Source: Eubacteriales bacterium
Lineage (GTDB): Bacteria; Bacillota; Clostridia; Lachnospirales; Lachnospiraceae
Direction of reading: 5' to 3'
Assembly: GCA_030536575.1 (NCBI GenBank)
Contig: JAUNPS010000006.1
Location: 62,001 to 126,000 of the forward strand
Length of the DNA stretch: 64,000 nucleotides
Within the stretch, counting starts at the first letter, position 1. Every line of letters begins with the position of its first letter. Positions 6,128-54,439 of this stretch are shown piece by piece. The translations under genes and the position numbers were made by a program. The notes beneath the pieces were generated by a model. That model was not told where the DNA came from. It searched no databases and worked only from the letters and a program-made list of their open reading frames with translations.

Positions 6128-6271
6128 CGTTACTGTTCACTCGTACCTCGTTCCAGTAACGCTTCACAGGCTCATTTTAAGTTTTGCTTCGCAAAAGAGC
6201 CTGCTCACACCTGAATCACGTTCTTACGTACCTGAGCAGCTAAGTGCTCAGGTACTGTCTCAATCGTAACG
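6128..6271 (+). repeat. Dispersed structured repeat, copy 1
   Basis: About 143 bp bounded by CGTTAC/GTAACG. Three hairpins are visible. Hairpin A is CGTTACTG...CAGTAACG. Hairpin B is CAGGCTC...GAGCCTG, enclosing TTTTGC-TTC-GCAAAA. Hairpin C is GTACCTGAGCA-gctaag-TGCTCAGGTAC. Other copies are at 14607, 22998 and 54297 (inverted), with a remnant at 50139. The right end contains the hflC stop codon and the left end abuts the pheST promoter. No coding capacity or transposase. Confidence 0.9.
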
Positions 6272-7123
6272 AAAAATCTGCGCGATCGGCGAATCCTCCG
6301 GCAAAACCAGAGTCTTATCTTCCCCGGTCATCGAAGCCTTCAGCGCGTCCAGGCTGCGGACAAAAGAGTAAAAATCCGTTTTCTCTTCATCCGAGTAGGC
6401 CTCCGCCAGGATCCGCATATACTCCGCTTCACCCTCCGCCTTCAGGATCTCCGCCTGCTTTTCCGCCTCGGAAAGCTGAATCGCCACTTCCTTATCCGTG
6501 GTATTGCGGATCACCTTCGCCTCCGAATTTCCTTCCGCCGTATAAGTGGCCGCAATGTTATTCCGCTCGGAAATCATCCGCTCATAAACCGCTTCTTTGT
6601 TGTCATTGGGCAGATCCAGCTTCTTGATCTCAAACACCACGACTTCAATTCCGTACTGAGATAAATTGTTCCCGATCCCTTCCATGACCTTTTCCGCCAG
6701 AAGCCCGTCCCGCCCGGAAATCACCTCATCCTGGGGCATGCTGCTGATAACGTTTTTCGTCGCATTGTAGACCGAGGTGTTAATCCGGCTCTCCGCATTG
6801 CTGATCGAAGAATTCAGGGTCTGGGCGAATTTCAGCGGGTCGCTGATCCGCCAGATTACATAGCTGTCGCTGATCATCGTCTTCTTATCCTGCGTGATCA
6901 CGTCCGAAGGAACCAGGTCATACAGCAGGTTCTGCTTAGGCAGCGTGGACACGGTCTGGATAAACGGAATTTTCATGCTTACGCCCGCCTCCTCGATCAC
7001 ACGTCCCACTTTTCCGAACTGGCGCACCAGACTGTATTCATTCTGTTCCGTAATCACCATCGAAGATTCCGCCAGCACCAGCGCCGCAATCACAACAACT
7101 CCTGCAATTATTTTCTTCTTCAT
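6260..7123 (-). CDS. hflC: HflC-like SPFH/band-7 membrane protein
   Basis: 287 aa. An N-terminal membrane anchor (about residues 4-20) is followed by an SPFH/prohibitin domain (NEYSLVRQFGKVGRVIEEAG and so on) and a charged Ala/Glu-rich helix around residues 190-250. With HflK it forms large membrane assemblies that modulate the FtsH protease and membrane protein turnover in bacteria where this was studied. ATG with GGAGG 9 nt upstream, 2 nt after the hflK stop, so translation is probably coupled. The last codons (RYD-stop) lie inside dispersed repeat copy 1, so the native C-terminus may have been changed by its insertion. Confidence 0.9.
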   Translation of the reverse strand: MKKKIIAGVVVIAALVLAESSMVITEQNEYSLVRQFGKVGRVIEEAGVSMKIPFIQTVSTLPKQNLLYDLVPSDVITQDKKTMISDSYVIWRISDPLKFAQTLNSSISNAESRINTSVYNATKNVISSMPQDEVISGRDGLLAEKVMEGIGNNLSQYGIEVVVFEIKKLDLPNDNKEAVYERMISERNNIAATYTAEGNSEAKVIRNTTDKEVAIQLSEAEKQAEILKAEGEAEYMRILAEAYSDEEKTDFYSFVRSLDALKASMTGEDKTLVLPEDSPIAQIFRYD

Positions 7124-7125
7124 AC

Positions 7126-8160
7126 CTAATTTCCTCCTTCCGCCGTATTCGCCGCCGCATTCGTCGCCGCGGTTTCCGTCTCGCCGCCATCCGTTCCGGT
7201 AAAGGAATCAAGCGGCAGTACCTTCTGAATCCCGTCTCCGCTGTCGATGATCACTTTCATGCCAGGGAGCACGTCTTCCATAGTCTCGTAGAACATCCGC
7301 TGTTTCGTCACGATCGGATTCTTCTGATATTCCTCATACATGGCATTGAACCGGGCCACCTGGGCCTCCGCCTCGTTGATGCGGGTCTGCTTTTCGGCTT
7401 CGGCCTCTTTGATGATCTGGTCTGCCTGGGCCTCCGCTTCCGGAAGCTGTTCGCTGCGGTATTTGTTGGCATTGTTCAGCGCGGTTTCTTTCCCCTGCTT
7501 CGCCGTTTCCACCGCTTTGAAAGCTTCCATGACGCTGGCCGTAGGCGGCTCGGAATCCTGGATCGTAATGTTCACAAGCTGGATTCCCACATCCTGAACT
7601 TCCATTTTTTCCAGGATCATTTCCTTAATCTTCGCCTGGATCTCACTCTTTCCGGTGGTCAGCACGTCGTCCACCGGATAGCTCCCGATGACGGTACGGA
7701 TACAGCTCTGGGAAATGTTTTTCAAAATCAGCTCCGGTTCGCTGGATGCGTATAAATACTGGACAGGTTCGGTAATCCGGTATTCTACATAAAAATCTAC
7801 GTTGATAAAGTTATAGTCCGAGGTGATCATGACGCTCTCGTCCTCGTTTGATTCATTGTTCGTCTCGTTGTAGCCGATGGCGAAGCCCTGGATCGTGGTG
7901 TTGACCTTTGTCACCTGCTGAACCAATGGAATTTTAAAGTGAAGGCCCGTCTCGGTCACTGCCTTGGGCTTTCCGAAGGTTACCAGCACGGCCTGCTCCT
8001 GTTCCTGGATCTGATAGAAGGAGCCTGTGAGGGCGACGCCTGCCACAGCCACGATACAGACGGCAATGATGCCGCCCTTGGCCGCCTTTCCCATCTTTCC
8101 TTTCTTTGGTTTTTCTTCGTAAACAACATTTTCATCCGCTTGTTTCTTTTTCTTCCACAT
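7126..8160 (-). CDS. hflK: HflK-like SPFH/band-7 membrane protein
   Basis: 344 aa. A basic cytoplasmic N-terminus (MWKKKKQADEN...), a transmembrane helix at about residues 30-50 (GGIIAVCIVAVAGVALTGSF), an SPFH domain from YQIQEQEQAVLVTFG, and a long helical tail ending in an Ala/Thr/Glu-rich segment. First gene of the hflK-hflC pair. The start MWKKKK has an excellent AAGGAGGAAAC; an upstream 26-residue extension does not. Partner and role as for HflC. This order matches E. coli but here without hfq or hflX beside it. Confidence 0.9.
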   Translation of the reverse strand: MWKKKKQADENVVYEEKPKKGKMGKAAKGGIIAVCIVAVAGVALTGSFYQIQEQEQAVLVTFGKPKAVTETGLHFKIPLVQQVTKVNTTIQGFAIGYNETNNESNEDESVMITSDYNFINVDFYVEYRITEPVQYLYASSEPELILKNISQSCIRTVIGSYPVDDVLTTGKSEIQAKIKEMILEKMEVQDVGIQLVNITIQDSEPPTASVMEAFKAVETAKQGKETALNNANKYRSEQLPEAEAQADQIIKEAEAEKQTRINEAEAQVARFNAMYEEYQKNPIVTKQRMFYETMEDVLPGMKVIIDSGDGIQKVLPLDSFTGTDGGETETAATNAAANTAEGGN

Positions 8161-8344
8161 ACGTTTCCTCCTTTTTAGGTGCTTTACAACTGGAGCACAG
8201 TTCCAAAGCGGGTGGCAGCCGGCCATTTTCTGTTTCAATCCACGTTCCTCACGGTATCGCGGTCTTTACGTGAAACATGTACCGCTGGCGCGCAGCGTAT
8301 TCTCCGTTTCCCTCCGTGCAAAACATGTACTGTTGTTTTCTGTG
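8161..8344. other. Intergenic region upstream of hflK
   Basis: No convincing ORF. It holds the hflK ribosome binding site, a solitary 33-bp segment at 8232-8264 resembling a type I-C CRISPR repeat (GTTTCAATCCACG at one end), and two copies of an ACATGT-containing motif near 8275 and 8327. No array and no clear promoter were found. Confidence 0.4.
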
Positions 8345-8389
8345 TAAAAAAAAGACTTTTACATCAGGTCGCCCTGAAATAAAAGTCTT
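8345..8389 (-). terminator. Rho-independent terminator of yihY
   Basis: On the minus strand AAGACTTTTATTTCAGGG pairs with CCTGATGTAAAAGTCTT and is followed by eight or more T. It ends leftward transcription of the spoIID-yihY unit. Confidence 0.8.
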
Positions 8390-8504
8390 GCTATTTGCTT
8401 ACATGAAACGGATAATTTCTATCGTTCTGACGATTCATGTACCACCTGATTCAAAAAAAACGGTGGCAGCTACTCCCTACTCCCTTTTCTTTGTCAAAAT
8501 TTTA

Positions 8505-9347
8505 TCAAATTTTCATCCCTTTGTCAAGCATATTTTTAATTTTTGCCCGCTCATAGAACCGGTTGAACTGCGCCCCGGCAAACAGAAGCCACATACAGAA
8601 ATACAGCCACAGCATGATCATAACGATCATCGTCAGGCCGCCGTAAATCGAAGTAAACTTCTCTTTCCATCCCACATACAGCGAGATCACATAGGAAAAC
8701 ACCGACCAGGAAATGGCCGCCAGCGCCGCTCCCGGAAGCTGCGTTACAAATTTCCGCCGGATATTCGGCAGATACGTGTACATTGCAGCAATCAACAGCA
8801 TCAGAGCCACCAGCACTCCTCCTGTTCTGACCAAGATAATCAGATCAGAAATCCTCGTCAAGGCCGGAATGTACACCAGAAGGATGCTATGAATGGTGTT
8901 GCCGAACACCAGCATGCCAAGGGCCAGAAGCAGGCTGACCAGAAGGATCATCACATAAAAGACGCCCCGTATCCTGCATAGAATATAGTTTCTGGTCTCT
9001 TTCAGCCCGTAAATGGAATTCAGGCCGTTGGATATGGACATGACGCTTCGCCCGCAGGCCCAGAGCGCCGCAATGGCCGTTCCGGACAGGATTGCTGTAT
9101 TTTTCACAAAGATTCCTCTTACCAGATCCTCCAGATAGGACCAGAACGCCTCCGGCAGCGCATCATGCAGGGCGTTTAACAGATCTTCTTCGGTCAGCGG
9201 CGTGTACTGGATCAGAATCAGCAAAAGCATCACGAATGGGATCAGTCCCATGATAATGTAAAAAGCAGACTGGGCAGCATAGGCATCCATGCGCGCTTCT
9301 CTGTTATCCTCCATAAATTGTCTGACTGTCTGAACTGCCTTTTTCAT
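8505..9347 (-). CDS. YihY/BrkB family inner membrane protein
   Basis: 280 aa with about six hydrophobic segments (FYIIMGLIPFVMLLLILI, GTAIAALWACGRSVMSISNG, FYVMILLVSLLLALGMLVFG, LVALMLLIAAMYTYLPN, and so on). The N-terminal AYAAQSAFYIIMGLIPF and the RRKFVTQLPGAALAAISW motif are typical of the YihY/BrkB family (formerly misnamed ribonuclease BN). Transport or virulence roles have been suggested for the family but the biochemical function is not settled. Its ATG has a GGAGAGG ribosome binding site inside the 3' end of the spoIID-like gene, overlapping it by 44 bp, which implies one mRNA. Confidence 0.85.
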   Translation of the reverse strand: MKKAVQTVRQFMEDNREARMDAYAAQSAFYIIMGLIPFVMLLLILIQYTPLTEEDLLNALHDALPEAFWSYLEDLVRGIFVKNTAILSGTAIAALWACGRSVMSISNGLNSIYGLKETRNYILCRIRGVFYVMILLVSLLLALGMLVFGNTIHSILLVYIPALTRISDLIILVRTGGVLVALMLLIAAMYTYLPNIRRKFVTQLPGAALAAISWSVFSYVISLYVGWKEKFTSIYGGLTMIVMIMLWLYFCMWLLFAGAQFNRFYERAKIKNMLDKGMKI

Positions 9348-10845
9348 CGAGTTCTACCTCTCCGTAATAATACTTTAAAATTTCCTCAAAGGTTTCCCCG
9401 GCCTCGGCCATATGCATAGCGCCGTTCTGGCTCATCCCAATGCCGTGGCCGTATCCTCCTCCGACTATCTGATAGCCCGTCAGCGTCTCCTCTTCGGTCT
9501 CCTCCGTCAAATAGAAAAAGGCGCTCGGCAGCAGGCCAAGATCCGGGGCCGTACTTCCATCCTGGCGCGTCACTGGGGTACTGGCGGGTTTTAAAAATTT
9601 CCGTATGGCATATTCGCCCGAAATTTCCGTGCTGCCTTTCGTCCCTTCCACACGGAGTATACGGGCGCTTCCGGAAGCTTCCCGTTCCGTAACGGAAAGC
9701 GCCGTAATTTCTCCCAGCTTCAGGCCAGCCTCCTTCGCCATTTCCGTCAGCTCTTCCAGGGAAAAGGCGGTGTCCCAGCGATACCACGGTTCGTCTTTTT
9801 CGTAGTCTTCCCGCTGCCCGTCCGAAAGATAGGCACAGAAAACGGCTTCTTCGGACAAATCTCTGGTCAGGTCGATGCCGCAGGAGGTGGAATAATATCT
9901 GGCGTCGGCCAGGTTTCCGTTTTCCATGAGGACGAGCCCTCTGGTGCCTTCTACGGCCTGGGTGCTGCGGGCGTCCCGCGGGAAATTGTTATAAACCTGG
10001 AATTCCACGCTGTCATCTACATCCGCGCCAAAGGCCTTTAACCGGCCGGAGGAAATCTGCGCGTAAGCGTAAGTCCGGGCGCAGACGGCCTGGGCTTTCA
10101 GGGCTTCCAGGGGATAGCGCGCCGGCATTTCACTCGGAACCACTGCGCTTAAATAGGCTTCGATATCCAATGTGTTCAAAAACAGATAACCCTCCTCCGT
10201 GCGCGTTACCTGAAGGCTGCCCTCGTAAAGAGGGTTTTCATAGCTGCGCTTTAAAAGCGGCATGGTAAAGCTGCCGTTCTCGCCTTCCGGTTCCAGAAGC
10301 CATACCGTGTTCTCCGTTTCGGTGTTTTCTTCCGGGAAATAAATCTGCTCGCCGGCTTCACAGCGGATTTTCTCGCCATTTTCCAGCGTACAGACATAGG
10401 CGGACTGAAATACAACCGTTTCTTCACTGTGGTAATAGCTCTTGAAGGAGTCCGACCGGAGCAGGACACGGATTTTTCCGGGTTCTGCCTCCTGAAAAAC
10501 CTCTGATACCTGCGTTTCATGGGCTGACTGCGAAGTTTCGTCCGTTTGCCCTGCCGCATCTGCCTGGGCGGCCCCGTCCGTTTGGCCCGCCGCATCTGTC
10601 CGCACGGCCCCGTTCGTTTGCTCTGCCGCATCTGTCTGCGTAGCCTCGTCCGTTTGGCCCGCCGCATCTGCCTGCGAATTCCTGTCCTCCTGCGCATCTT
10701 CGCCCGGCCATGCCGTTTCGTCCGCCCGCTCCGTCACGCCTGCCTGCGCCGTCTGTCCCTTCCACCTCTCATACCGCCACAGCGTCACTCCCAAAAGCGC
10801 CACAATCACCAGCGCCAGCAGCCCCCCATATTTCTTCCCGTCCAC
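9304..10845 (-). CDS. SpoIID/LytB domain protein
   Basis: 513 aa. Residues 7-23 form a membrane anchor. Residues 30-115 are a low-complexity Gln/Thr/Asp/Ala linker with four 12-residue repeats. The remainder is a SpoIID/LytB domain with LFLNTLDIEAYLSAVVPSEMPA, KAQAVCARTYAYAQ, YYSTSCG and the C-terminal GGGYGHGIGMSQNGAMHMA. SpoIID is a lytic transglycosylase needed for engulfment; LytB-type members modify amidases. The anchored, extracytoplasmic layout fits either. GTG start with AAAGGAGAAGC 8 nt upstream. A TATAAT at about 10884-10889 has no good -35. It overlaps yihY by 44 bp. Confidence 0.88.
   Translation of the reverse strand: MDGKKYGGLLALVIVALLGVTLWRYERWKGQTAQAGVTERADETAWPGEDAQEDRNSQADAAGQTDEATQTDAAEQTNGAVRTDAAGQTDGAAQADAAGQTDETSQSAHETQVSEVFQEAEPGKIRVLLRSDSFKSYYHSEETVVFQSAYVCTLENGEKIRCEAGEQIYFPEENTETENTVWLLEPEGENGSFTMPLLKRSYENPLYEGSLQVTRTEEGYLFLNTLDIEAYLSAVVPSEMPARYPLEALKAQAVCARTYAYAQISSGRLKAFGADVDDSVEFQVYNNFPRDARSTQAVEGTRGLVLMENGNLADARYYSTSCGIDLTRDLSEEAVFCAYLSDGQREDYEKDEPWYRWDTAFSLEELTEMAKEAGLKLGEITALSVTEREASGSARILRVEGTKGSTEISGEYAIRKFLKPASTPVTRQDGSTAPDLGLLPSAFFYLTEETEEETLTGYQIVGGGYGHGIGMSQNGAMHMAEAGETFEEILKYYYGEVELDEKGSSDSQTIYGG
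10531..10674. repeat. In-frame 36-bp tandem repeat, four units
   Basis: Encodes residues 58-105 of the SpoIID-like protein as four degenerate 12-residue units of the form QADAAGQTDEAT. GC-rich and imperfect. It forms a linker between the membrane anchor and the enzyme domain. Confidence 0.85.
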
Positions 10846-10919
10846 TCAGCTTCTCCTTTGGCATGTCCGGCTCTTGCTTCCATTATATCTTCTTTTTTCC
10901 AAAACATGCGTACAATGTA

Positions 10920-11969
10920 CTATTCCCATACAAAGCGGTAAACCGTGGTGGTATCATAAACCTCCCCCGCCTTCAGCACCGAGCTCGGAAAATTCTCATG
11001 ATGCACCGCATCCGGATACACCTGCGTCTCCAGGCACAGCCCCTGGCGCTTCCCATAATGGACACCGCCCTTCCCGGTCTTCTCCTCCCCGATAAAATTC
11101 CCGGCATAGAACTGCACGCCCGGCAGATCCGTAAACACTTCCATCTTCCTTCCCATCGCCGGAAGCGTCACCTCCGCAATCTTCCGAATCCCCTCACCCT
11201 GATGGTTCAGGACAAAGTTATGGTCATAACCGCCGCCCTTCACGATCTGCTCATAATCCGAATCGATCTCCAGCCCGATCTCCTTGGGCGACCGGAAATC
11301 AAAAGGCGTCCCCTCCACCGGACGGATCTCCCCCGTCGGGATCGAATCCGCATCCGTAGGCGTAAACGCGTCCGCATCCAGCCACAGTACATGATCCGTG
11401 ATCGTCCCCGGCCGGTCATGCCCTGCCAGGTTAAAGTAACTGTGGTTCGTCAGGTTCGCAATCGTATCCGCATCCGCTTTCGCCTGATAATGCAGCTTGA
11501 TGCTGTTCTCTTCTGTCAATGTATAGGTCACGGATACGGTCATATTTCCAGGAAATCCTTCGTCTCCATCCGGGCTTTCCAGCGTAAAGCGCACGGCGTT
11601 CTCCTCTTCCAGGCATACAGCTTCCCAGATCCGTTTATCGAATCCGCTGTTTCCGCTGTGCAGGTTATTTTCCTTCTCATTCTTCTCCAGGTGGTAGGTC
11701 TTTCCGTTTAATTCCACTTCTGCATTCCCGATCCGGTTTCCATTCCGGCCGATGACCGCCCCGAAAAAGCCGCCGTAAGTTTCATAATCCTTCGCTTCCC
11801 GATATCCCAGAATCACATCTGTCAGCTTTCCGTCTTTTCCCGGCACGCAGGCTGCGACCAGCGTCGCCCCCAGATCCGTCACGGAAACGCGCATCCCGTT
11901 TCGATTTGTCAGTGTAAACAGACTGGCCTGCGCTCCGTTTCCAGTCTTTCCAAAAGCACATCGCTCCAT
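10920..11969 (-). CDS. galM: Aldose 1-epimerase (galactose mutarotase)
   Basis: 349 aa, usual length. It interconverts alpha and beta anomers of aldoses. Motifs: FGAVIGRNGNRIGNAEVELNGK, the base/acid histidines in NLHSGNSGFDKR and NLTNHSYFNLAGH, and the catalytic Glu region CLETQVYPDAVHHENFPSS. The ATG at MERCAFG follows AAGGAGGATAAGG; a TTG 21 nt upstream overlaps that ribosome binding site and is rejected. No gal operon surrounds it. The 6S RNA gene ends only about 20 nt upstream, so there is no room for a separate promoter apart from one inside the 6S gene. Confidence 0.93.
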   Translation of the reverse strand: MERCAFGKTGNGAQASLFTLTNRNGMRVSVTDLGATLVAACVPGKDGKLTDVILGYREAKDYETYGGFFGAVIGRNGNRIGNAEVELNGKTYHLEKNEKENNLHSGNSGFDKRIWEAVCLEEENAVRFTLESPDGDEGFPGNMTVSVTYTLTEENSIKLHYQAKADADTIANLTNHSYFNLAGHDRPGTITDHVLWLDADAFTPTDADSIPTGEIRPVEGTPFDFRSPKEIGLEIDSDYEQIVKGGGYDHNFVLNHQGEGIRKIAEVTLPAMGRKMEVFTDLPGVQFYAGNFIGEEKTGKGGVHYGKRQGLCLETQVYPDAVHHENFPSSVLKAGEVYDTTTVYRFVWE

Positions 11970-11990
11970 ATCCTTATCCTCCTTATTCAA

Positions 11991-12212
11991 AAAAAAGAGA
12001 GCTTTCGCTCCCTTTTAGACACCCAGAATGCCGTTTCCTGCACTTTGACTCCTAGCAAAGCTAGGTGGGTAACCGCAGCCGCAAGCTCTGCCTTCCGCTG
12101 ATTCGAGGCGGCCTGGCATCACCTGTGGCGATATAAGAATCCCATAAAAGTAAATGTAGGTTCAAAATAGCAGGATTGTCGAACACCCCAGGAAGTTCTC
12201 GTTTTGGTATCT
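11991..12212 (-). ncRNA. ssrS: 6S RNA
   Basis: Minus-strand RNA of about 200 nt. The 5' segment CCTGGGGTGTTCGACAATCC and the 3' segment CAGGAAACGGCATTCTGGG pair along their length with wobbles to form the closing stem, as in bacterial 6S RNA. The middle contains TTTTGAACCTACATTTAC and GGGATTCTTATATC, which I recall from Firmicutes 6S RNAs, plus a CCTAGCTTTGCTAGG hairpin. It ends with GGGAGC-GAAA-GCTCTC and a T8 run. 6S RNA mimics an open promoter and holds housekeeping RNA polymerase. Ends are approximate. Confidence 0.85.
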
Positions 12213-12218
12213 GTAATG

Positions 12219-12247
12219 ATTATACCCCAGTATCTGCTTATTTTCAA
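12219..12247 (-). promoter_or_regulatory. Promoter of 6S RNA
   Basis: Minus strand TTGAAA (12247-12242), 17-nt spacer, consensus TATAAT (12224-12219). Predicted start near 12212. Confidence 0.88.
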
Positions 12248-12380
12248 TAGATAATTCTATCCAGATTTTATTCCCAAAATTTGGACAGAATTCCGACAAA
12301 TTTCGACTTGCGTCCCCGTTGTCTTCTCAAGCCCCTTCATCATACCGTACTTCTTTTCCCCCGTCAACAACTTTTTTTCA

Positions 12381-12410
12381 TTGTACAACCCGCCCATTTT
12401 ATGGTAAGAT
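12381..12410 (+). promoter_or_regulatory. Promoter of citrate synthase 1
   Basis: TTGTAC (12381-12386), 18-nt spacer, TAAGAT (12405-12410) with TGG extension. The leader to the ATG is about 60 nt. Confidence 0.65.
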
Positions 12411-12475
12411 ATGTTTGATGTGCCGATTTAACACCGAAAAGTGACGCACAATTGATTTTTTCAAGGAGGTTTAGC

Positions 12476-13843: not shown

Positions 13844-13855
13844 CAGAAGGCATCG

Positions 13856-13887
13856 AGAGCGCAGACGTATAATCGCCTGCGCTCTTT
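13856..13887 (+). terminator. Terminator of citrate synthase 1
   Basis: Perfect 9-bp stem AGAGCGCAG/CTGCGCTCT with a 12-nt loop and a short TTT tail. Convergent with the next gene. Confidence 0.75.
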
Positions 13888-13894
13888 CCCTGTT

Positions 13895-14560: not shown

Positions 14561-14606
14561 AGCTGAAACTCCTTCCTGTCCTTTTCCTGGTACAGTAACC
14601 AGGATA

Positions 14607-14730
14607 CGTTACTGTTTACTCGTACCTCGTTCCAGTAACATTTCGCAGGCTCATTTTAAGTTTTGCTTTGCAAAAGAGCCTGTTCACACCTGAATCGCGT
14701 TCTTACGTACCTGAACAGTACTAGGGTACC
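14607..14730 (+). repeat. Dispersed structured repeat, copy 2
   Basis: Hairpins A and B are intact (CGTTACTG..., CAGGCTC...TTTTGC-TTT-GCAAAA-GAGCCTG). Hairpin C is shortened to GTACCTGAACAGTACTAGGGTAC, and the right terminus is missing. This is the most diverged full-size copy. It lies between the sensor kinase 3' end and the unknown exported protein. Confidence 0.85.
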
Positions 14731-14767
14731 GCTTTTTCTTGAACTGGTCTTGGAGTGAAGATGTTTT

Positions 14768-16841: not shown

Positions 16842-16916
16842 AATGCACCTCCTGTCCTAAGTATAACAAAGGAATTTGAATCTATTGTGTAGATTTTTGG
16901 GGAATCGTCAAACACA

Positions 16917-22639: not shown

Positions 22640-22948
22640 AAAATAAAAAAGCCTTCAGTCTCTGATCCAGCAAATGCTGTCGTAGAGACGAAAGACTATA
22701 AAAATCTCACGCGGTACCACTCTATTTTATGAATTTCTTCATACACTCAACGGATACGGGCTTTTCAGCTTTATATCCTTTCCCTTCTAACGGTGGGACT
22801 CCGTCTGCGTCTACTCTCCTTTGGATTTCGGGCAGCCGCTCCGAGGCGAGTTCTGACCATCCCTTCTGCTGTCTCGCATCATCCGGCAGCTTTCTGGATT
22901 CCAGTCCGATCGTACTATTCCTCTTCTCAGCATTTGAGTATTCAACTG
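22640..22948 (-). promoter_or_regulatory. T-box riboswitch upstream of leuA
   Basis: Minus strand T-box core AGAGTGGTACCGCG around 22723-22711, then a terminator stem (AGTCTTTCGTCTCT with AGAGACTGAAGGCT) and a T6 run at 22650-22643. A long structured leader precedes it. The gene identity implies tRNA-Leu; CTC in AGAACTCGCC is one possible specifier, not proven. Confidence 0.92.
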
Positions 22949-22983: not shown

Positions 22984-22997
22984 GAGCCGAAATCAAA

Positions 22998-23139
22998 CGT
23001 TACTGTTACTCGTACCTCGCTCCAGTAACGATTCACAGGCTCATTTTAAGTTTTGCTTTGCAAAAGAGCCTGCTCACTCCTGAATCACTTTCTTACGTAC
23101 CTGAGCAGCTAAGTGCTCAGGTACTGTCTGAATCGTAAC
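22998..23139 (+). repeat. Dispersed structured repeat, copy 3
   Basis: Full-length, with the same three hairpins as copy 1 and only scattered substitutions. The right 23 bp contain the last codons and stop of the radical SAM gene (DSDST-stop). The left end abuts the leuA promoter. Confidence 0.9.
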
Positions 23140-24031
23140 AGTCAAACAAATTCATCTGCCGCACCTCATACCTCTGCCGGTATCCCGCAATAATATCCCT
23201 CATCCGGTAACGGATCTTCCGCCTCTCACACTCCGCCGCAAAAACCTCCCAGAGCTCTTTCGCCCGCGAACTCCTGCACTCATAAAGATTCCCATACCGC
23301 TTCTGGTACTTCACCACCAGCCCCTCCCCCGGAAACACCTCATTCAGCTTCTCATAATACCACTCCCGCTGGTTCATCCGCAGCGTCATCCCAAAAGCCG
23401 GATAGATAAATTTCCCTCCCGCCTCCGCCGTCCGCCGCACAATCTCCAGCACATTTTCCGGCGTATCCTCCAGAAACGGCAGCACCGGCATCAGCAGCAC
23501 CCCCGCAAACAGCCCTTCCGCCGACAATTTCGCGATCATATCCAGCCTCTCCGAAGACAGCGCCACTCTGGGCTCGATCTTCCGGCAAAGCCCGTCATCC
23601 GCCGTCGTCACCGTCACCTTCAGAAGCACCGGGGAATGCTCCGAAATCTCCTTCAAAATGTCCACATCCCGGAGCATCAGCGTACTTTTTGTCGCAATCG
23701 CCGCCCCAAATCCGAACGCATCCACAAGCTCCAGCGCATGGCGTGTCAGAAGCAGCTCCTTTTCAAACGGATTGTACGGATCGCTCATGGCCCCGGTTCC
23801 CACCACGCCCTTTTTCGTCTTCCGCCGCAGATCATCCCGGATCACCCGCAGCGCGTCCGCCTTCACCCGCACCCGGTCAAACTCCTCCACGCCATAGCAG
23901 GCCGAACGGCTGTCACAGTAAATGCACCCGTGACAGCAGCCCTTATAAATGTTCATATTGTAATCAATTCCAAACCATTCCGCCGGAGCCTTGCATTTCG
24001 TCACAATGGTCTTCGCAGGGATTTCTTCCAT
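23117..24031 (-). CDS. SPL-like radical SAM protein
   Basis: 304 aa. The [4Fe-4S] motif CxxxCxxC is at KGCCHGCIYCDSRS (about residues 31-44). A SAM-binding TIM barrel follows with GTGAMSDPYNPFEKELLLTR, LKVTVTTADD and GVLLMPVLPFLEDT, as in the spore-photoproduct-lyase-related/Rv2578c family found widely in Firmicutes. Substrate is unknown; true SplB has a C-terminal substrate cysteine region that I cannot identify here. It starts 29 nt after the ABC exporter with AAGGAGAG and may be co-transcribed. Its C-terminus is provided by the dispersed repeat. Confidence 0.85.
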   Translation of the reverse strand: MEEIPAKTIVTKCKAPAEWFGIDYNMNIYKGCCHGCIYCDSRSACYGVEEFDRVRVKADALRVIRDDLRRKTKKGVVGTGAMSDPYNPFEKELLLTRHALELVDAFGFGAAIATKSTLMLRDVDILKEISEHSPVLLKVTVTTADDGLCRKIEPRVALSSERLDMIAKLSAEGLFAGVLLMPVLPFLEDTPENVLEIVRRTAEAGGKFIYPAFGMTLRMNQREWYYEKLNEVFPGEGLVVKYQKRYGNLYECRSSRAKELWEVFAAECERRKIRYRMRDIIAGYRQRYEVRQMNLFDCYDSDST

Positions 24032-43791: not shown

Positions 43792-43794
43792 TCG

Positions 43795-45465: not shown

Positions 45466-45498
45466 AACTGCCTCCTGATTCTCATGTTATAATACCCC

Positions 45499-45527
45499 AT
45501 CATAGCATAAACCCGCAAAAAATACAA
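45499..45527 (-). promoter_or_regulatory. Promoter of glnS
   Basis: Minus strand TTGTAT (45527-45522), 17-nt spacer with TGC, TATGAT (45504-45499). Confidence 0.8.
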
Positions 45528-45535
45528 TTTTTCTC

Positions 45536-47646: not shown

Positions 47647-47648
47647 TT

Positions 47649-48329
47649 TTACAGCTCCACTCTCACCGGCTGATCGATCCGCATGGAATCCGGCGTCACC
47701 AGGCAGTCCCTGGCGAAAATCCGCACTCCCTGCTTCTGGGCGTCCCGCAGGGCCTCCCCAAAGGCCGGATGCGTCTGGTCGTTGGGCTGAAAGCAGGAAA
47801 TGCCTTTCATCTGGATCACAAACAGCAGACAGGCTTCGTAGCCGTCCCGCACGCACCGGACAAGCTCCTGGACATGCCGGACGCCCCGCTCGGTGGGCGC
47901 ATCCGGGAAACGGGCAATCCCCTCTTCTTCCAGGGTCACGCCCTTGACTTCCAGAAATATGCGGCGTTTTTCCGTTTCCATATAGAAATCAAAACGGGAA
48001 TTTCCGTATCTGGTTTCCGGCCGGACGAAAAGCGGCTCCGGGATGAACGCGCCGGATCTCAGCCATTCTTCCGTGACACGGTTCGGGGCCTGGGAGTCCA
48101 GATTGATGATGGTATTTCCTTTTTTCACACTGATCAGATCGTACTTTGTCTTACGCGCCGGGTTTTCGCTTTTCGAAATCCAGACCGTGGTCTGGGGAAC
48201 CAAAAGCTCCCGGCATCTTCCGGTGTTTTTTACATGGCAGATTTCCGTCTGTCCGTCCCGGAGCACATGGGCAATGAAACGGTTCGGCCTGGACTGGAAA
48301 ACTGCCTCTTCTACCTTTGTATACTGCAT
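47649..48329 (-). CDS. sfsA: SfsA family DNA/RNA nuclease-like protein
   Basis: 226 aa. SfsA signatures: FIAHVLRDGQTEICHVKNTGRCRELL, the nuclease-like D/E-x-K pattern SRFDFYMETEKRRIFLEVKGVTLEEEGIARFPDAPTERGVRHVQEL, and QKQGVRIFARDC. First described as a sugar-fermentation stimulation protein; the fold resembles restriction endonucleases. Start MQYTKVEEA fits the family but AGGAAGG lies almost directly on the ATG; an ATG 12 nt earlier is an alternative. Confidence 0.88.
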   Translation of the reverse strand: MQYTKVEEAVFQSRPNRFIAHVLRDGQTEICHVKNTGRCRELLVPQTTVWISKSENPARKTKYDLISVKKGNTIINLDSQAPNRVTEEWLRSGAFIPEPLFVRPETRYGNSRFDFYMETEKRRIFLEVKGVTLEEEGIARFPDAPTERGVRHVQELVRCVRDGYEACLLFVIQMKGISCFQPNDQTHPAFGEALRDAQKQGVRIFARDCLVTPDSMRIDQPVRVEL

Positions 48330-48345
48330 CCTTCCTACCATCCGG

Positions 48346-49977
48346 TCATCGGTAAAAACAGACCACCGGAAATCCTGCATAAATATTTTCGTACATCAGC
48401 GCTGCCTGGTCCAATGGCATATTAATGCATCCGTGGGAACCTCCGTTCTGGTAAATGCTTCCGCCGAAACTTCCCCGCCAGGTGGCATCGTGGAAACCGA
48501 TTCCACCGTTAAAGGGCATCCAATAGTTTACAGGCGTCTCATAGGAGTCGCCCGGCGTATCGCTCTTTAGAACATCCGGAGATTTCTTATAATAAATCGT
48601 ATAAATCCCCGCGGGCGTCGCATGGTTTTTCGCAATATCCCCGGACACAAAATCGGTATCCAGCAGCAGACGGCCGTCCACATACATCCAGAGGTGCTGT
48701 TTCGTCAGGTCGACTTCCACATAACTGTCTCCCATGCCGCAGTTATCGAAACTGAGCGCGGTCTGGGCGTAGGCGGGGTCGCGGATTTCCTGCTGGCTGT
48801 TCTTGAGATCATTGTTCAGGTTTTCGATCTCGGCCGCCTGATCGATCATCCAGCCGAAACTGCCGCCGCTGACCTGGATATAGGTGCCGTCGGTCGCCTT
48901 GAATTCTTTGGTTTTATTATAGGTGTCGTGGCGGGCGGCCAGTTCTGCGACGTACTGCGCGACGGCTTCCTGGTCAACGGTTACATTGCCCTCCTCGTCT
49001 GCGGTCAGCCATTCCTTGATGGTGTTCCCGTCCAGAATCTCCGATTCGTCCCCGAAGGTATATTCCACTCTGGTGTCGGTGTAATGCTTCAGATTCTGAT
49101 ACAGGTTTTTCAGATATGGATCTTCGCTGGTCACATTTGGCTCCGCGTAGCAGCCCTGGGCCTCCAGGGAAACGCCGGCGGCTCCTGCCTGGATGACTTT
49201 TTTGATAATGTATTCCAGCCGTTCAAAGTCGATCAGGTCGCCTTCCTTTTCCCGGATGAGCTGATAGGTGCCGCCTTTGAACTCTATGCGGGCGTCTTCG
49301 GGAGCTTCCATGTCCTGCATGCATTTCAGGTTTAAAAGCACCTCTTTTAACTTTTCCGGATCGTAGGCCGTGCTGGAATCGAACGAATAATCGTAGGTTT
49401 TAAAAAAGCTGACGGGCCATTCGAAAGCGCCCTGTTCGACCTTGAACAGCTCGACTTCGTTTCTGGATACGTAATGGTAATCAATGTCCGCGGCGTCGAT
49501 ATACTCCCGCTCGCCGCCCCGTTCTGCCAGCTCAATGTGGTACTTTTCGGCATTTTTCGCCAGGCGCGCCTCGATCTCTTCGACGGTACAGCCGGATGCA
49601 TCCGTCCCGTTAATCGTCGTGTTCGGCAAAAATTTATCCTGAAAGTATATCATGCCGCCTACGTACAGGACGGCGCACAGGGCTGCCAGGATACCGGCCG
49701 GAAGTAGGACGGCTCTGCCCCATGGGAAATATTTTTTCCGGTGCAAGGACTCTTCGCTGCTGGAATTCGTCTGCTGTTCCATTCTTTTTAACCTGCGCTT
49801 CTCCCTTCTTCGGCTGGCTTTTTCTGCTTTTTTGCGGGCTCGCCGGCTGGATGGAGGCGGGGCCGTATCGGACGGCGATTCCCCGTGCTCCGAAAGGGGC
49901 GGCTGGCCCTTCGCTCTCCCCTGCGGTTCTTCTTCTGTCAGATCCGCTAATGTAATTTCTTTCATATCCCCACTCAT
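48346..49977 (-). CDS. L,D-transpeptidase with PG-binding region
   Basis: About 543 aa. A cytoplasmic Arg/Lys/Glu-rich N-terminus (about residues 1-85, with RRARKKAEKASRRREKRRLKR), one membrane helix (about 90-112), two peptidoglycan-binding_4/VanW-type domains with TTINGTDASGCTVEEIEARL, and a C-terminal YkuD catalytic domain (about 410-543) with SGDIAKNHATPAGIYTI, HDATWRG and the active-site GSHGCINMPLDQA. It makes 3-3 crosslinks or anchors proteins in peptidoglycan, resistant to penicillins. Two starts are possible (MSGD at 49977, MKEI at 49965). First gene of the ldt-sfsA-mutY-GT unit. Confidence 0.88.
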   Translation of the reverse strand: MSGDMKEITLADLTEEEPQGRAKGQPPLSEHGESPSDTAPPPSSRRARKKAEKASRRREKRRLKRMEQQTNSSSEESLHRKKYFPWGRAVLLPAGILAALCAVLYVGGMIYFQDKFLPNTTINGTDASGCTVEEIEARLAKNAEKYHIELAERGGEREYIDAADIDYHYVSRNEVELFKVEQGAFEWPVSFFKTYDYSFDSSTAYDPEKLKEVLLNLKCMQDMEAPEDARIEFKGGTYQLIREKEGDLIDFERLEYIIKKVIQAGAAGVSLEAQGCYAEPNVTSEDPYLKNLYQNLKHYTDTRVEYTFGDESEILDGNTIKEWLTADEEGNVTVDQEAVAQYVAELAARHDTYNKTKEFKATDGTYIQVSGGSFGWMIDQAAEIENLNNDLKNSQQEIRDPAYAQTALSFDNCGMGDSYVEVDLTKQHLWMYVDGRLLLDTDFVSGDIAKNHATPAGIYTIYYKKSPDVLKSDTPGDSYETPVNYWMPFNGGIGFHDATWRGSFGGSIYQNGGSHGCINMPLDQAALMYENIYAGFPVVCFYR

Positions 49978-50278
49978 TTTCCCCTGAAAATCCTGGCTCC
50001 GCCGGACGGTGCTGCCAGGCACACGGATATACGGAGCCGGAATTAGTGTATGGCCTGCGCTTTTCTACCTGACTATCATAACATTTTCTTCCGTGTTGAG
50101 AAAGTCCTTTTTTGAATCCTTAAGAAAAATTAATAAGTGAATCATATTCTTACGTACCTGAGCAGTAACTAATAAGTCGCTGCCGTTCCCGCCGCGCCGG
50201 ACGCCATACAACCTTATTATGCCAGAAAATGTCCCAGCGCATACAGCGGCACGGCAAAACCTGCCGCACCGCCTTCCT
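49978..50278. other. Intergenic region with a repeat remnant
   Basis: About 300 bp between the divergence of ldt upstream sequence and the amidase 3' end. It holds only the remnant of the dispersed repeat at 50139-50169; no gene, and no sigma-A promoter of good quality was seen. Confidence 0.5.
50139..50169 (+). repeat. Remnant of the dispersed structured repeat
   Basis: GAATCATATTCTTACGTACC and TGAGCAG match the segment before and into hairpin C of the full copies; then GTAAC resembles the terminus. The rest is absent, so this is a deletion derivative. Confidence 0.7.
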
Positions 50279-51076
50279 TCAGTAATCAACCGTCACAATC
50301 CAGGTATTATACCCATACCTGCGCAGCACACGCTCCATCTCCACTGCACAGTCCATCTGCGGGCAAAATCCCACCCGCACCCGGAAATACCCGTCCTCCT
50401 CCGTCAGATAAGCCGGAAATCCCTGACTTACCAGCTCAAACAGCATCTCCCATGCATACCGCCTGTTCCGGAAGGCCCCTGTCTGCACACTGTAAACCAT
50501 CTGGCCGGACGGCGTCTCCTCCTCTTGTCCCCTGGAATTCTCCTCCCGGATCGTCTCTAAAATCCCATCTGCAATGGCCTGCGCCACCTCCTGGAATTTC
50601 TCATCAAAAATCCGGTTGTCCTCTTCGCTGTTAATGAAACCCGCTTCTACCAGCACTGCCGGCATCTGCGTCCTGCGCAGCACCACCAGCCCCGGCCGCT
50701 CCTCTACGCCCAGATTCCGGAAACCCAGCTTCTCCAGTTCGCTGTTAATGTTCTCCGCCATCTGAAGCTTTACGCCGGACTTGTCATAGACCAACGTCTG
50801 CACGCCTGAATACTGTCCCGGCACCGCACCGGAATTCCGGTGAATGGATACGAAAAAATCCGCTCCGGCATTGTTTGCGATCTGTGCCTTCTCAAAAGGC
50901 TGCTGATAAACGTCTTCCGTCCGTGTATAGATCACATCCACACCATTTCTCTGCAAAATTTCCCCTACCGCAAGGGCCAGGGAAAGGTTGTCGTTCTTTT
51001 CTTCGCGTCCCTGATAGACCGCGCCGCTGTCCTGTCCGCCGCCGTGTCCGGCGTCGATTACTACAACTGGGGGCAT
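50279..51076 (-). CDS. N-acetylmuramoyl-L-alanine amidase with SPOR domain
   Basis: 265 aa. Amidase_3 catalytic zinc site: VVVIDAGHGGGQDSGAV (first His), the Glu after GREEKNDNLSLALAVGE, the second His in FFVSIHRNSGA, and the catalytic Glu in PAVLVEAGFINSEEDN. A C-terminal SPOR domain (about residues 190-265; MVYSVQTGAFRNRRYAWEMLFELVSQGFPAY) binds denuded glycan. No signal peptide precedes MPPVVVIDAGHGG although AAGGAGGTC fixes this start, so the export route is unclear. Confidence 0.9.
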   Translation of the reverse strand: MPPVVVIDAGHGGGQDSGAVYQGREEKNDNLSLALAVGEILQRNGVDVIYTRTEDVYQQPFEKAQIANNAGADFFVSIHRNSGAVPGQYSGVQTLVYDKSGVKLQMAENINSELEKLGFRNLGVEERPGLVVLRRTQMPAVLVEAGFINSEEDNRIFDEKFQEVAQAIADGILETIREENSRGQEEETPSGQMVYSVQTGAFRNRRYAWEMLFELVSQGFPAYLTEEDGYFRVRVGFCPQMDCAVEMERVLRRYGYNTWIVTVDY

Positions 51077-51217
51077 AAAAAGACCTCCTTGCCTATTCTT
51101 TATAGAATATGCAGGAGGCCGCCATACCGGAACCTTTTCCGCAGGATTTTGTCTTTCTTCCGGGCGCCGCAAAGGCACTATGCCGTCTGCGGCTGTCCCA
51201 AGTACCATCTCATCCGC

Positions 51218-51622
51218 TTAGAATATTGCTTTTGTTTTACTGCAAATCGGAAACCACTCACAGTCGCCGCACACGCGCTCCAGACTGCCTGTCTCCAGAA
51301 TCTTCTCCTTCACCGTCACCGAAAACTCCTTCCACGAAAGCTCCATTCCCGGCTCCAAGCCGCACAGCTCCATGACTGACCGGTCATACTTTTTCACCTT
51401 CTGGCCGCTCTCGCAGGCCTCTCCCCGCCTGTGCGGACATTTCGCACACAGCGCATCCGCGCTGTCCGCCAGTTCAATGACTGTATCTTCATATACCTTA
51501 AGCTGCTCCTGAACCATCGTCATGTGCGCAACAAATTCGCTGCTGTATCCTTTTCCCATATAAAACTGGAGGCACAGACCATGATGTCCGCGCAGCCGGA
51601 GTTTCCCATCCATCTTATGCAT
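51218..51622 (-). CDS. DUF1284 domain protein
   Basis: 134 aa. The diagnostic LRLRGHHGLCLQFYMGKGYS opens the protein, and cysteine pairs follow (CAKCPHRRGEAC and CGDCEWFPIC), so it probably binds zinc or an Fe-S cluster. Function unknown; the family is sometimes near cofactor genes, here bioY. Its start overlaps the bioY stop by 8 bp; a second ATG is 9 nt on. The ribosome binding site is poor, so translation probably depends on bioY. Confidence 0.85.
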   Translation of the reverse strand: MHKMDGKLRLRGHHGLCLQFYMGKGYSSEFVAHMTMVQEQLKVYEDTVIELADSADALCAKCPHRRGEACESGQKVKKYDRSVMELCGLEPGMELSWKEFSVTVKEKILETGSLERVCGDCEWFPICSKTKAIF

Positions 51623-52163
51623 TCGCCATCGTCAGCTTCAGCGCCGGACGCAGCCGAACCGCCAGCGCTCCCGCCAGCACAATCTTCACCGCATCCCCCG
51701 GCAGGAACGGCAATACGCAGTACGCCAGGCTCGTTCCCAGATCCAGCCCGGTGACAACCATAAACCAGATCGTTCCCAGCACATAGCAGGCCGCACATCC
51801 AACCACCGCTGCAATGCACATTTTCCAGAACTCTGTCCCCCATTTTTCACAGATCAGCCCGGTCAGAAAAGCGCTTAAAATGTAGCCGATCGCATAGCCG
51901 CCCGTCTTTCCCATCAGGATTCCCAGGCCTCCCGTGAAGCCTGCCATAACCGGAACGCCGACTGCCGCCAGCAGAATATAAATCGCCTGGCTCAGTGCCC
52001 CGTACTTCTTTCCAAGAAGCAGCGCAGACAGGTGCACGCTGAACAGCGCCAGATTAATCGGCACCATCGGAAGCGGAATCTGAATCTGGCTGCAGGCGGC
52101 TGTCAGGGCCGCGAAAAGGGCGCTCAGAGCGAGCATTTGCGTTTTGGTTCTTGATTTTTCCAT
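51615..52163 (-). CDS. bioY: Biotin transporter BioY
   Basis: 182 aa, six membrane helices. S-component of an ECF biotin transporter: ALSALFAALTAACSQIQIPLPMVPINLALFSVHLSALLLG, GKKYGALSQAIYILLAAVGVPVMAGFTGG and GKTGGYAIGYILSAFLTG are typical. The shared EcfAT energising module is not in the window. Start MEKSRTK with GGAG. A BirA-type operator overlaps its promoter, so biotin represses it. Confidence 0.95.
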   Translation of the reverse strand: MEKSRTKTQMLALSALFAALTAACSQIQIPLPMVPINLALFSVHLSALLLGKKYGALSQAIYILLAAVGVPVMAGFTGGLGILMGKTGGYAIGYILSAFLTGLICEKWGTEFWKMCIAAVVGCAACYVLGTIWFMVVTGLDLGTSLAYCVLPFLPGDAVKIVLAGALAVRLRPALKLTMANA

Positions 52164-52195
52164 AATATTCTCCACTCCTATCATTTACTGCGCCC

Positions 52196-52250
52196 ATTAT
52201 ATTCCATTTCTTTTTGATTGTCAACTATTTTATTTTTATTGGTTAACAAT
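52196..52250 (-). promoter_or_regulatory. BirA operator and promoter of bioY
   Basis: Minus strand TTGTTAACC-N14-AGTTGACAA (operator 52250-52217) closely matches the BirA box. The -35 TTGACA (52224-52219) lies in the right half-site; 17-nt spacer, TATAAT (52201-52196). The left half-site contains the TAA stop of the upstream GNAT gene. Confidence 0.92.
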
Positions 52251-53106
52251 CCGTTTTCTTCCTCTTTTTTTTCCCTTCCGCTTCTCCGGCCAATCCAACC
52301 GTCTTTAAAATACTCCAGATATAAGGCGCGCCGAAAATCCCCAGCATTTTCGGGCCAGTGATCGGTTCCCCCGCGTTTCTGGCCGCGCAGATTTTCTGAT
52401 AGGCTTTCACCACCGTTGCCTGGGTGATGGACTTCGCCTTCCGGTCGCAGAACAGCTCGCCGCCCCGGACCCGGTACTGGAACGGCAGATTCTTACTCGT
52501 AAAAAAGAGCTGCCCTTCATACTGCGTAATCACTTCCCACAATAGTCGCGGCATTTCCGCTTCCGACTGGCATGCCTTCAGCTCCTCCACGGCCCTCCGG
52601 CAGACCTCCTCCTGCCTTTGCAGCATCTCTATTCTGCTCTTTTCCATCAGATAATTCTTCAAAACCACTCCGTCCCGTTCCACGAAATTCTCCCGCACCA
52701 CGCGGTATCCCCGGCTCTCGAAAAACGGCTTCGCTGTAATCGACGCATAAACCGTAAACGTCTCCACCGCCTCGCCCTGAATCCCATTTTCCAGGAATTT
52801 TACCAGATTTCCCGCGATTCCCTCGCGCTGGAAATCCCGGTGGACATACAGGCAGTCCAGATAGCCGTTTGGTTCCATATTCGCGAAGCCGATGATTTCC
52901 CCCAGCTTTTCAGCAACCAGGGTGCGGCTTTCGAGGAAACGCTGGTTCCAGGCGGATTCGTCGAAGGGCGTGTTCAGCCAGGCGGTGATCTGGGCGGGGG
53001 TGTAGTCGCGGGAGGCGATGGTTTTTATGGTGCCCTGGTAGAGACTGTGGAGGTTTGAGCAGTCAGTGGGGAGGTATGGACGGAGGATGTAGGCAGCTTT
53101 TTTCAT
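52243..53106 (-). CDS. GNAT acetyltransferase with C-terminal extension
   Basis: 287 aa. Residues 1-155 form a GNAT domain (LRPYLPTDCSNLHSLYQGTI, the acetyl-CoA loop LYVHRDFQREGIAGNLVKFLE, YASITAKPFFESRGYRVV). Residues 160-287 are an extension with EGQLFFTSKNLPFQYRVRGGELFCDRKAKSITQATVVKAYQKI and ITGPKMLGIFGAPYIWSIL, which I recall as a clostridial fused domain without an assigned function; its helix-rich layout could bind nucleic acid. Substrate unknown. ATG with GGGAG. Confidence 0.8.
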   Translation of the reverse strand: MKKAAYILRPYLPTDCSNLHSLYQGTIKTIASRDYTPAQITAWLNTPFDESAWNQRFLESRTLVAEKLGEIIGFANMEPNGYLDCLYVHRDFQREGIAGNLVKFLENGIQGEAVETFTVYASITAKPFFESRGYRVVRENFVERDGVVLKNYLMEKSRIEMLQRQEEVCRRAVEELKACQSEAEMPRLLWEVITQYEGQLFFTSKNLPFQYRVRGGELFCDRKAKSITQATVVKAYQKICAARNAGEPITGPKMLGIFGAPYIWSILKTVGLAGEAEGKKKRKKTDC

Positions 53107-53150
53107 GGGTTCGGACTCCCTTTTTATGGACTTTCTTGTGTTTCGACGGC

Positions 53151-54251
53151 TTAATACAACTGGTATCCATTAGAATCCAAAGAAAACTCCCGCTCTGTCA
53201 GCACTCTGATATTCTCCAGCTCATATTTATTAAAGACATCATCCGAAAAATTCTCCGGGCTGATCCTGCCATAGTACCATCTCTTCCCCTCAAAATACTC
53301 CCGGAGTTCCTGGGAATTAAACAGGCGGCCTCTGCGGGCATAAATCTCATTTTTCGCATAGCATGCCATCTTCAGAGAAAGGCCGTTCACCTCATCGCTG
53401 GTCAGATAGCGGGTATCGCTGTCAATGAAAATGTAGTCATTTTTCAGGAGTTCCTGGTCCGAAGCGCCTGCTGACAGCACTTTTGTAATGTCATAGCCGG
53501 GCTGATCCAGGACATAGCCGCCGGAACTTCTGGCCATTTCGCACTGGGACAGGAGCTGGACGTTGGCGTTCTCGTAGGCATTAAAGATCGCGGTAGAAAA
53601 GTTCTCCGGCTGGACGGTTCCGTTATACCAGTCCTTGCTGTTAAAATAGTCGGTCAGTTCCTGGGATTTGAACAGGCGGCCGTGACGGGCATAGATTTCA
53701 TTTTTCGCGTAACAGATCGCCTGCTGGGACAGGTTTGTGGTCTCGCTTTCTGACAGATAGCGGGTATCGCTGTCCGGGAAAATGTAGCTGTCATCCACAA
53801 GGGTATCGGTGAGCTGTTCGCCGTAGACATACTGATAAACGGCATCATAAGTATAGCCGGAACGATCCAGCACGTAGCCGCCTGGTTCCAGTTCCTTTTC
53901 CCGGTTTGTTAAAAGCTGAATGTTTGCGGTTTCATACTGGTTCAGCACCGCGGACGAAAATTCTTCCGGGCTTAAAAATCCGTAATACCAGGGCTGTTCG
54001 CCAAAATAGCCGGAAAGCTCTTTCGAGACAAAGGTGCGGCCGTGGCGGGCATAAATCTCATTTTTCGCGAAGCAGACAACCTGTACGGACATGCCGCTGA
54101 TGTCTTCGGCTGTCAGGTAACGGCTGTCGCTGTCTGCGATGATGTACTCAAATGCTTTCGTTTCTGCCTTCGTCTCCACGGCGAAGAAATTCACAAACAG
54201 GGCGCACAAGAGCACAAGTAACGGTACTGAAAATCCTTTTCTCTTTTTCAT
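53151..54251 (-). CDS. Secreted protein with three YARHG domains
   Basis: 366 aa. Signal peptide (residues 1-29, PLLVLLCALFVNFFAVETKA), then three repeats of about 105 residues. Each has SDSRYLTAEDI-like start, CFAKNEIYARHGRTF, a YFGEQPWYYG-like segment and a C-terminal ANIQLLTNRE. The hallmark is YARHG in the first two and YARRG in the third. YARHG domains are extracellular and of unclear function, often in cell-wall or surface proteins. ATG with AAGGAGG. Downstream of an amidase fusion gene and separated from it by repeat copy 4. Confidence 0.88.
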   Translation of the reverse strand: MKKRKGFSVPLLVLLCALFVNFFAVETKAETKAFEYIIADSDSRYLTAEDISGMSVQVVCFAKNEIYARHGRTFVSKELSGYFGEQPWYYGFLSPEEFSSAVLNQYETANIQLLTNREKELEPGGYVLDRSGYTYDAVYQYVYGEQLTDTLVDDSYIFPDSDTRYLSESETTNLSQQAICYAKNEIYARHGRLFKSQELTDYFNSKDWYNGTVQPENFSTAIFNAYENANVQLLSQCEMARSSGGYVLDQPGYDITKVLSAGASDQELLKNDYIFIDSDTRYLTSDEVNGLSLKMACYAKNEIYARRGRLFNSQELREYFEGKRWYYGRISPENFSDDVFNKYELENIRVLTEREFSLDSNGYQLY

Positions 54252-54296
54252 GACTTTTCCTCCTTTTTCTATAGAAAATTTTATGACCGTTCTGCG

Positions 54297-54439
54297 GTTA
54301 CTATTCAGGCAGTACCTGAGCACTTAGCTGCTCAGGTACGTAAGAACGTGATTCAGGTGTGAGCAGGCTCTTTTGCGAAGCAAAACTTAAAATGAGCCTG
54401 TGAATCGTTACTGGAACGAGGTACGAGTGAACAGTAACG
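54297..54439 (-). repeat. Dispersed structured repeat, copy 4 (inverted)
   Basis: Full-length copy in inverted orientation relative to the others, with hairpins A, B and C intact. The amidase fusion gene reads into it and gains its last residues and stop codon there. Confidence 0.9.

Follow-up and report, generated by a model that had tools for sequence, protein, structure and literature searches.

A short, folded, gene-less transposon of the Lachnospiraceae with three hairpins and a polar target preference

In its organisation, the repeat reported here, a unit of 142 bp in canonical form (GTTACTGTTCA...TGAACAGTAAC) present in several copies in a 64,000-nucleotide stretch of a Lachnospiraceae genome (assembly GCA_030536575.1, contig JAUNPS010000006.1, positions 62,001 to 126,000; hereafter the window), most nearly resembles the pneumococcal BOX and RUP elements. 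In the accessible part of PMC3049150, BOX of Streptococcus pneumoniae and S. suis is described, like our element, as short, high-copy, modular and folded, with terminal inverted repeats that are paired in the fold and with target duplications. BOX further contains variable numbers of boxB modules, its ends resemble ISSpn2, and the same portion of the text gives its range as pneumococcus, S. mitis, S. suis and, rarely, other streptococci (PMC3049150). By comparison with this description, the element here differs in its occurrence in 42 genera, its unrelated stem sequences, its 8-bp duplication and its polar target. RUP, ERIC/IRU and Correia (NEMIS) are similar in being non-autonomous, folded, repeated miniature inverted-repeat transposable elements (MITEs) of ~100-200 bp, and covariation across genera is not among the features reported for them in the accessible parts of PMC2229807 and PMC3049150. 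According to a table in the available portion of the former review, Correia, ERIC and RUP all have a TA dinucleotide at their ends (PMC2229807), which our element lacks.

REP/REPIN sequences are hairpin repeats in many copies, as is the present element, and are moved in trans by RAYT (TnpA-REP), a transposase whose gene often stands without a surrounding element. HUH Y1 transposition is not known to leave a target duplication, and membership in the REP/RAYT group was rejected on account of the clear 8-bp duplications found both in the window's genome and in others. The palindrome-associated elements derived from IS200/IS605 share with ours their folded ends and polar target choice, but are not known to possess terminal inverted repeats or target duplications; since both are present here, this membership was likewise rejected. 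An earlier note made from the window's sequence had named no described family to match the repeat, and the searches agree with this: no Rfam match lies over the elements searched, and the literature searched contains no description of the element family. Such searches do not prove absence, and the repeat may be among the palindromic candidates (250 in number) within the structured-RNA candidates from human microbiomes, as given in the accessible part of PMC8040213.

Copy number and mobility

The repeat is a non-autonomous, gene-less DNA transposon and, by structure, a MITE, as it combines terminal inverted repeats, a duplication of fixed length, a short gene-less body and high copy number. In the window's genome (G000; 4.81 Mb in 100 contigs, 90.7% complete), a 19-bp left-end motif was found at 109 places when up to two mismatches were allowed, compared with none for the reversed pattern, and a BLAST search of the genome with the element returned at least 41 places (40 of 144 first-look candidates scored). 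We examined 101 distinct copies from this genome for target duplications, requiring a GTTACTG start with at most two mismatches, a CAGTAAC-like end and an abutting exact duplication of at least 5 bp. Such a duplication flanked 39 of the 101, with a length of 8 bp in 37 cases, 7 bp in one and 9 bp in one. The elements enclosed by these 39 duplications measured 142 bp (30), 166 bp (4), 130, 123 and 115 bp, and 32 bp (2), the family in this genome being mostly 142 bp long (115-166). Among 37 copies from other genomes, with boundaries taken from a covariance model, the 8-bp duplication was exact in 19 and carried one mismatch in 8 more (27 in total). The mobile-element half of the earlier proposal is thus borne out by 8-bp duplications at unrelated sites and by ~109 dispersed copies, and the opposite outcome, a sequence confined to the same sites with no copies elsewhere, is not what was found. 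The sole empty-site evidence comes from one locus (L033), at which an element lies inside a tandem array and its joined flanks match the unoccupied units at 76-79% across the junction. The array itself (L033/L175, contig C30) consists of TGTTTCACGTGAAACA sites, which we take to be parS-like, spaced ~60-64 bp apart with a single element inserted.

Two other forms accompany the canonical one in this genome. A 166-bp subtype (L314, L086, L098, L099) carries 24 extra bases in the loop of the third hairpin. A second, strongly folded family of 292-293 bp (L272, L287, L302 and L305 on C5, C8, C30 and C64) shares the start of the terminal repeat (GTTACTGTTCACA) and has 8-bp duplications with 0 or 1 mismatch; it is probably moved by the same enzyme as the 142-bp element.

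Fold and covariation across genera

Plain DNA similarity detects the element in 3 of 31 genomes, its own included, and an exact search for the 19-bp motif among named species genomes returned 24 stretches, among them ones from Roseburia inulinivorans DSM 16841 and from Lachnospiraceae-labelled metagenome-assembled genomes. In other genomes, the elements often keep the terminal repeats and a left end of 26-32 bp but differ in their interiors; starts of GTAACTG or GTTACAG also occur there in place of GTTACTGTTCA, 8-bp duplications persist and lengths are mostly 131-149 bp. A covariance model (R1), built from 14 elements, matched 42 of 200 genomes of the host family at E <= 0.001, each genus being represented once and the own genome counted; the E-values are rough, stricter filters were applied and three of the 42 (G000, G005 and G006) had supplied training sequences. 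One of the genomes, G125, a near-complete genome with one contig of 3.59 Mb, yielded 43 R1 matches with its own version of the sequence and with 8-bp duplications.

The fold consists of three hairpins. Hairpin A is formed by the 5' terminal repeat itself, which pairs with a copy of the 3' end lying ~20-40 bases inward, so that two partners are open to this repeat, the adjacent copy and the 3' end itself. At least 6 of the 7 pairs of hairpin A are kept in 33 of 36 elements, and the partner is the best of 29 offsets. Hairpin B is interrupted by a bulge of 7-8 bases (consensus CATTTAAA) and closes with a CTTCG tip, followed in many, not all, elements by a linker near CTGAATCA..TTCTTACG, and hairpin C has a CAGYAARTG loop. 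The bulge, tip and loop all remain recognisable across genera while the stem sequences change.

Covariation was assessed in 36 representative elements, using an alignment fitted to the model and 500 shuffles. Paired cells amounted to 94.6%, compared with 69.8% in the shuffles and 29-45% when the alignment was slid; cells changed on both sides numbered 278 vs 79, and the covariation score was 0.634 vs 0.169. Two weaker measures exceeded the shuffles by a narrow margin, with 23 pairs changed on both sides vs 18.6 in the shuffles (reached by 1 of 500) and 65 further pair types vs 58.2 (reached by 5 of 500). In an unfitted MAFFT alignment of the same 36 elements, the helices were 78%, 87% and 80% Watson-Crick vs 20-54% when slid by 1 or 2, and 208 both-side changes were counted. 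The stem pairing proposed from the window therefore extends across genera: the same fold is recovered by the model in 42 of the 200 genomes, and substitutions keep the stems rather than breaking them. The accompanying remark that loops and linkers vary more than stems is correct in part. Of 76 copies from the window's genome, the 67 that had no more than 12 mismatches were compared and 9 dropped; variation is 0.6% in stem B1 and 1.7% in hairpin C vs 2.7% in the linker and 15.4% at positions 33-38, but the terminal repeats, which also pair, reach 7.2%. The middle of the element varies by 0.5-4.1% by region, positions 33-38 excepted, and both 7-bp ends are perfect in 27 of the 67 copies, or in 35 if TAGTAAC is allowed.

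These patterns bear on a first alternative, namely that the repeat is an ordinary MITE fold-back whose hairpins have no function, template switching or gene conversion between copies being what preserves the identity of the arms. Ends more variable than the middle are what conversion would give, although survival of non-excisable copies would yield variable ends as well, and the fitted alignment combines both-side changes with few G-U intermediates, as this alternative would have it. However, the CATTTAAA bulge, the CTTCG tip, the CAGYAARTG loop and often the CTGAATCA..TTCTTACG linker persist while stems change, and arm-to-arm repair does not account for conserved parts that are unpaired. We consider such a fold-back unlikely.

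The fold also occurs in modified versions. A second hairpin-C type is present in G125 and in G034, and five copies in G125 (L414-L418) represent a 233-bp form with ~91 extra bases, including hairpin-like repeats, at the hairpin-B bulge.

Origins outside the chromosome were considered as well. A plasmid origin was rejected, as no plasmid match was obtained, and so was a phage origin, as no viral contig matched the 19-bp motif exactly. A looser pattern matched eight viral contigs, none with the three-hairpin element (one, L319, contains an inverted repeat of the end motif), and the end of the 292-bp family had no viral-contig match. Divergent copies are present in nine records of 4-33 kb deposited as human faecal phage, in two of them over at least 80% of the query; the six of these records that were inspected are all unannotated, and such records may be bacterial.

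Target polarity, a proposed role of folded DNA and the route of transposition

The target site is not symmetrical. Base 8 of the duplication lies next to hairpin A, and among 98 elements with exact duplications in which hairpin A is clear at one end, 84 carry a pyrimidine there (p 2.5e-13; often TY), a preference seen in the window's genome (31 of 35), in G125 (24 of 27) and in the others (29 of 36). At the mirror position, a purine at base 1 occurs in 48 of 98, which is random. Since equivalent ends would predict a palindromic preference, the two ends probably differ in function.

Overall, we lean somewhat towards a folded mini-transposon acting at the DNA level, a MITE-like family mobilised in trans by a transposase with a polar target. 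The enzyme would be supplied in trans and cut with an 8-bp stagger, treating its two ends as non-equivalent. The hairpins would act as folded DNA, either single-stranded or extruded, for instance during replication, in recognition or in the choice of ends; we place them in DNA because neither strand has the signature of an RNA and because the fold outlasts sequence similarity. In a more specific version, target polarity would be set by recognition of the 5' end as hairpin A, folded in single-stranded DNA, and integration would nevertheless leave an 8-bp duplication. The transposase would then be encoded by a chromosomal gene that these ends do not bound, and hairpin A would be mobile by itself, at 27-37 bp one of the smallest mobile units known. 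We judge this version quite unlikely. The interiors of MITEs are generally regarded as unconstrained. Here, a gene-less transposon with a polar target rule keeps a three-hairpin fold over dozens of genera despite sequence turnover, which allows the idea that DNA folding is selected for transposition to be tested. It also accounts for a large repeat class in the host family for which we found no annotation, and yields a covariance model for annotation and for transposase hunting.

Part of the case for DNA comes from G-U pairs. Folded interiors of the 36 elements contain 4.4% G-U pairs on the strand bearing hairpins A, B and C in that order and 4.7% on the other, compared with 9.8% vs 4.0% on the opposite strand for 42 tRNAs in the fetched DNA. 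The elements accordingly lack the strand asymmetry of functional RNA in this test, which favours a DNA-level role or arm-to-arm repair. The complement of the CTTCG tip, C-GAA-G, is very stable as DNA, and may serve as a lead. In searches with Rfam 15, the window had no match over any element at the gathering cut-off, the only two matches near one copy (copy 4, below) were both far below gathering, and ten loci searched at E <= 0.5 gave T-box and tRNA matches only, both outside the elements. These observations address a second alternative, that of a functional RNA, cis-regulatory or small, read from one strand and spread by transposition. The strong covariation is of the kind an RNA would produce, and placement is intergenic, with 2 of 93 copies in the window's genome inside an open reading frame. 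Next to hairpin A, the neighbouring gene runs antisense in 68 of 88 cases in the window's genome and in 20 of 28 in G125, so that the complement of the element would lie in 5' leaders, and BOX and ERIC repeats are reported, in the accessible parts of PMC3049150 and PMC2229807, to affect expression of neighbouring genes. Against this, copies in other genomes have no clear gene orientation (18 antisense and 14 sense, of 32), the Rfam searches yielded no match over the elements, and the G-U content is symmetrical, unlike that of tRNAs. An RNA role thus appears improbable. As for replication, local GC skew makes the A-B-C strand the lagging one in 70 of 93 copies of the window's genome, a strong bias (8 of 101 dropped for short flanks). 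The bias is moderate in G125 (31 of 43, p 0.005) and absent from copies in other genomes (19 of 34; 3 of 37 dropped), and a general orientation bias was rejected; replication and transcription are not separable in these counts.

A third alternative is mobilisation by a conventional insertion sequence that shares these ends and is either absent from the draft assemblies or unrecognised, in which case the hairpins would be irrelevant to movement. Terminal repeats and 8-bp duplications are typical of DDE transposases, and high-copy insertion sequences often drop out of draft assemblies. A comparable pairing is that of RUP with IS630-Spn1, as described in the accessible part of PMC3049150. However, G125, with its 3.59-Mb contig and 43 copies, had no such insertion sequence within ~3 kb of the places examined, and a polar target preference is not expected from two equivalent ends. 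We regard this alternative as somewhat less likely than not.

Several observations weigh against the DNA-level mini-transposon that we favor. Firstly, a transposase with these ends was not found: IS6 and IS256 were tested, and ISL3, IS66, IS1595, IS4 and ISAs1 were not searched. The IS6 family was not found in the window's genome, nor was IS256 in that genome or in R. inulinivorans, and IS256 genes found elsewhere had no matching ends. Terminal-repeat patterns in the window's genome and its relatives, together with pair scans for ends with an 8-bp duplication, gave no autonomous partner. In G125, for 100 of 113 terminal-repeat places listed, no pair with an exact duplication encloses a gene-sized interior; 24 of the listed places belonged to neither a short pair nor a model hit and were examined together with ~3 kb to either side, a scan that would miss a longer element or one lacking an exact duplication. 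Secondly, the 98 target sites had been chosen for exact duplications, and the T present at base 7 in 59 of 98 is mirrored by an A at base 2 in 43, which leaves base 8 as the clearly polar position. Thirdly, the scarcity of G-U pairs is weakened as proof of DNA function, as it depends upon the alignment: G-U occupies 8 of 705 cells in the fitted alignment (63 of 905 in the tRNA stems of ARAGORN) vs 44 of 805 in the unfitted one, and reliance is placed on strand symmetry instead. Finally, the stems could also persist via palindrome repair between arms.

Copies in the window and short derivatives

The four copies and the remnant listed in the earlier note are all present, with ends shifted by one or two bases, and R1 matches the four copies with E from 8e-33 to 3e-18. 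The ends given in that note, CGTTAC and GTAACG, stand as a GTTAC start and a GTAAC end, the outer C and G being flank outside of the unit. Copy 1 (6129-6270, plus strand) is a full 142-bp element with hairpins A, B and C at 6129-6160, 6167-6203 and 6228-6255, and its flanks (TACCACTC and GAAAAATC) have no clear target duplication. The covariance model places copy 2 at 14608-14722 on the plus strand, where hairpin C and the 3' end are shortened or diverged; it too lacks a clear target duplication. A 7-bp CAGTAAC end at 14593-14599 lies exactly 8 bp before copy 2 (14593-14607 with those 8 bp), which suggests a tandem insertion or its remnant. Copy 3 (22999-23139, plus strand), a full element with a 1-bp deletion in its left terminal repeat, lies between a left duplication AATCAAAC (22991-22998) and a right duplication AGTCAAAC (23140-23147) that has one mismatch to it. 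Copy 4, on the minus strand at 54297-54438, is again a full 142 bp, with hairpins A, B and C at 54438-54407, 54400-54364 and 54339-54312, and the duplication CGCAGAAC at its 3' end (54289-54296) is matched exactly at its 5' end (54439-54446). In addition to matching the model, this copy folds with z = -6.3 as DNA and -5.8 as RNA, and none of 200 shuffles was equally stable. The remnant (50139-50169, plus strand) is a deletion derivative that retains the end of the B-C linker, the first arm of hairpin C and the GTAAC end, flanked by exact copies of TAATAAGT (50131-50138 and 50170-50177). Copies 1 and 3 lie just upstream of T-box leaders (5837-6063 and 22681-22937, respectively), the former preceding a gene for phenylalanyl-tRNA synthetase and the latter a 2-isopropylmalate-synthase-like gene.

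Shortened copies that retain an exact duplication recur elsewhere, with lengths of 32 bp (twice) in the window's genome, 27, 32 and 35 bp in other genomes and 42, 45, 47 and 69 bp in G125. Decay would act chiefly on the ends of copies and through internal deletion, giving rise to the 27-69-bp derivatives that keep their target duplications, and those of 32 bp could result from deletion between repeated CAGTAAC motifs. At L022, L064, L205, L213, L233, L409, L411 and L412, solo units measuring 27-47 bp are flanked by exact 8-bp duplications, and several consist of hairpin A alone. The proposal that solo units of 27-51 bp are independently mobile was set aside, since post-insertion deletion explains them equally well. 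At two loci, L311 (G001, contig C110) and L205 (G034), tandem elements share the same 8 bp between them, as if new insertions reuse the duplicated target.

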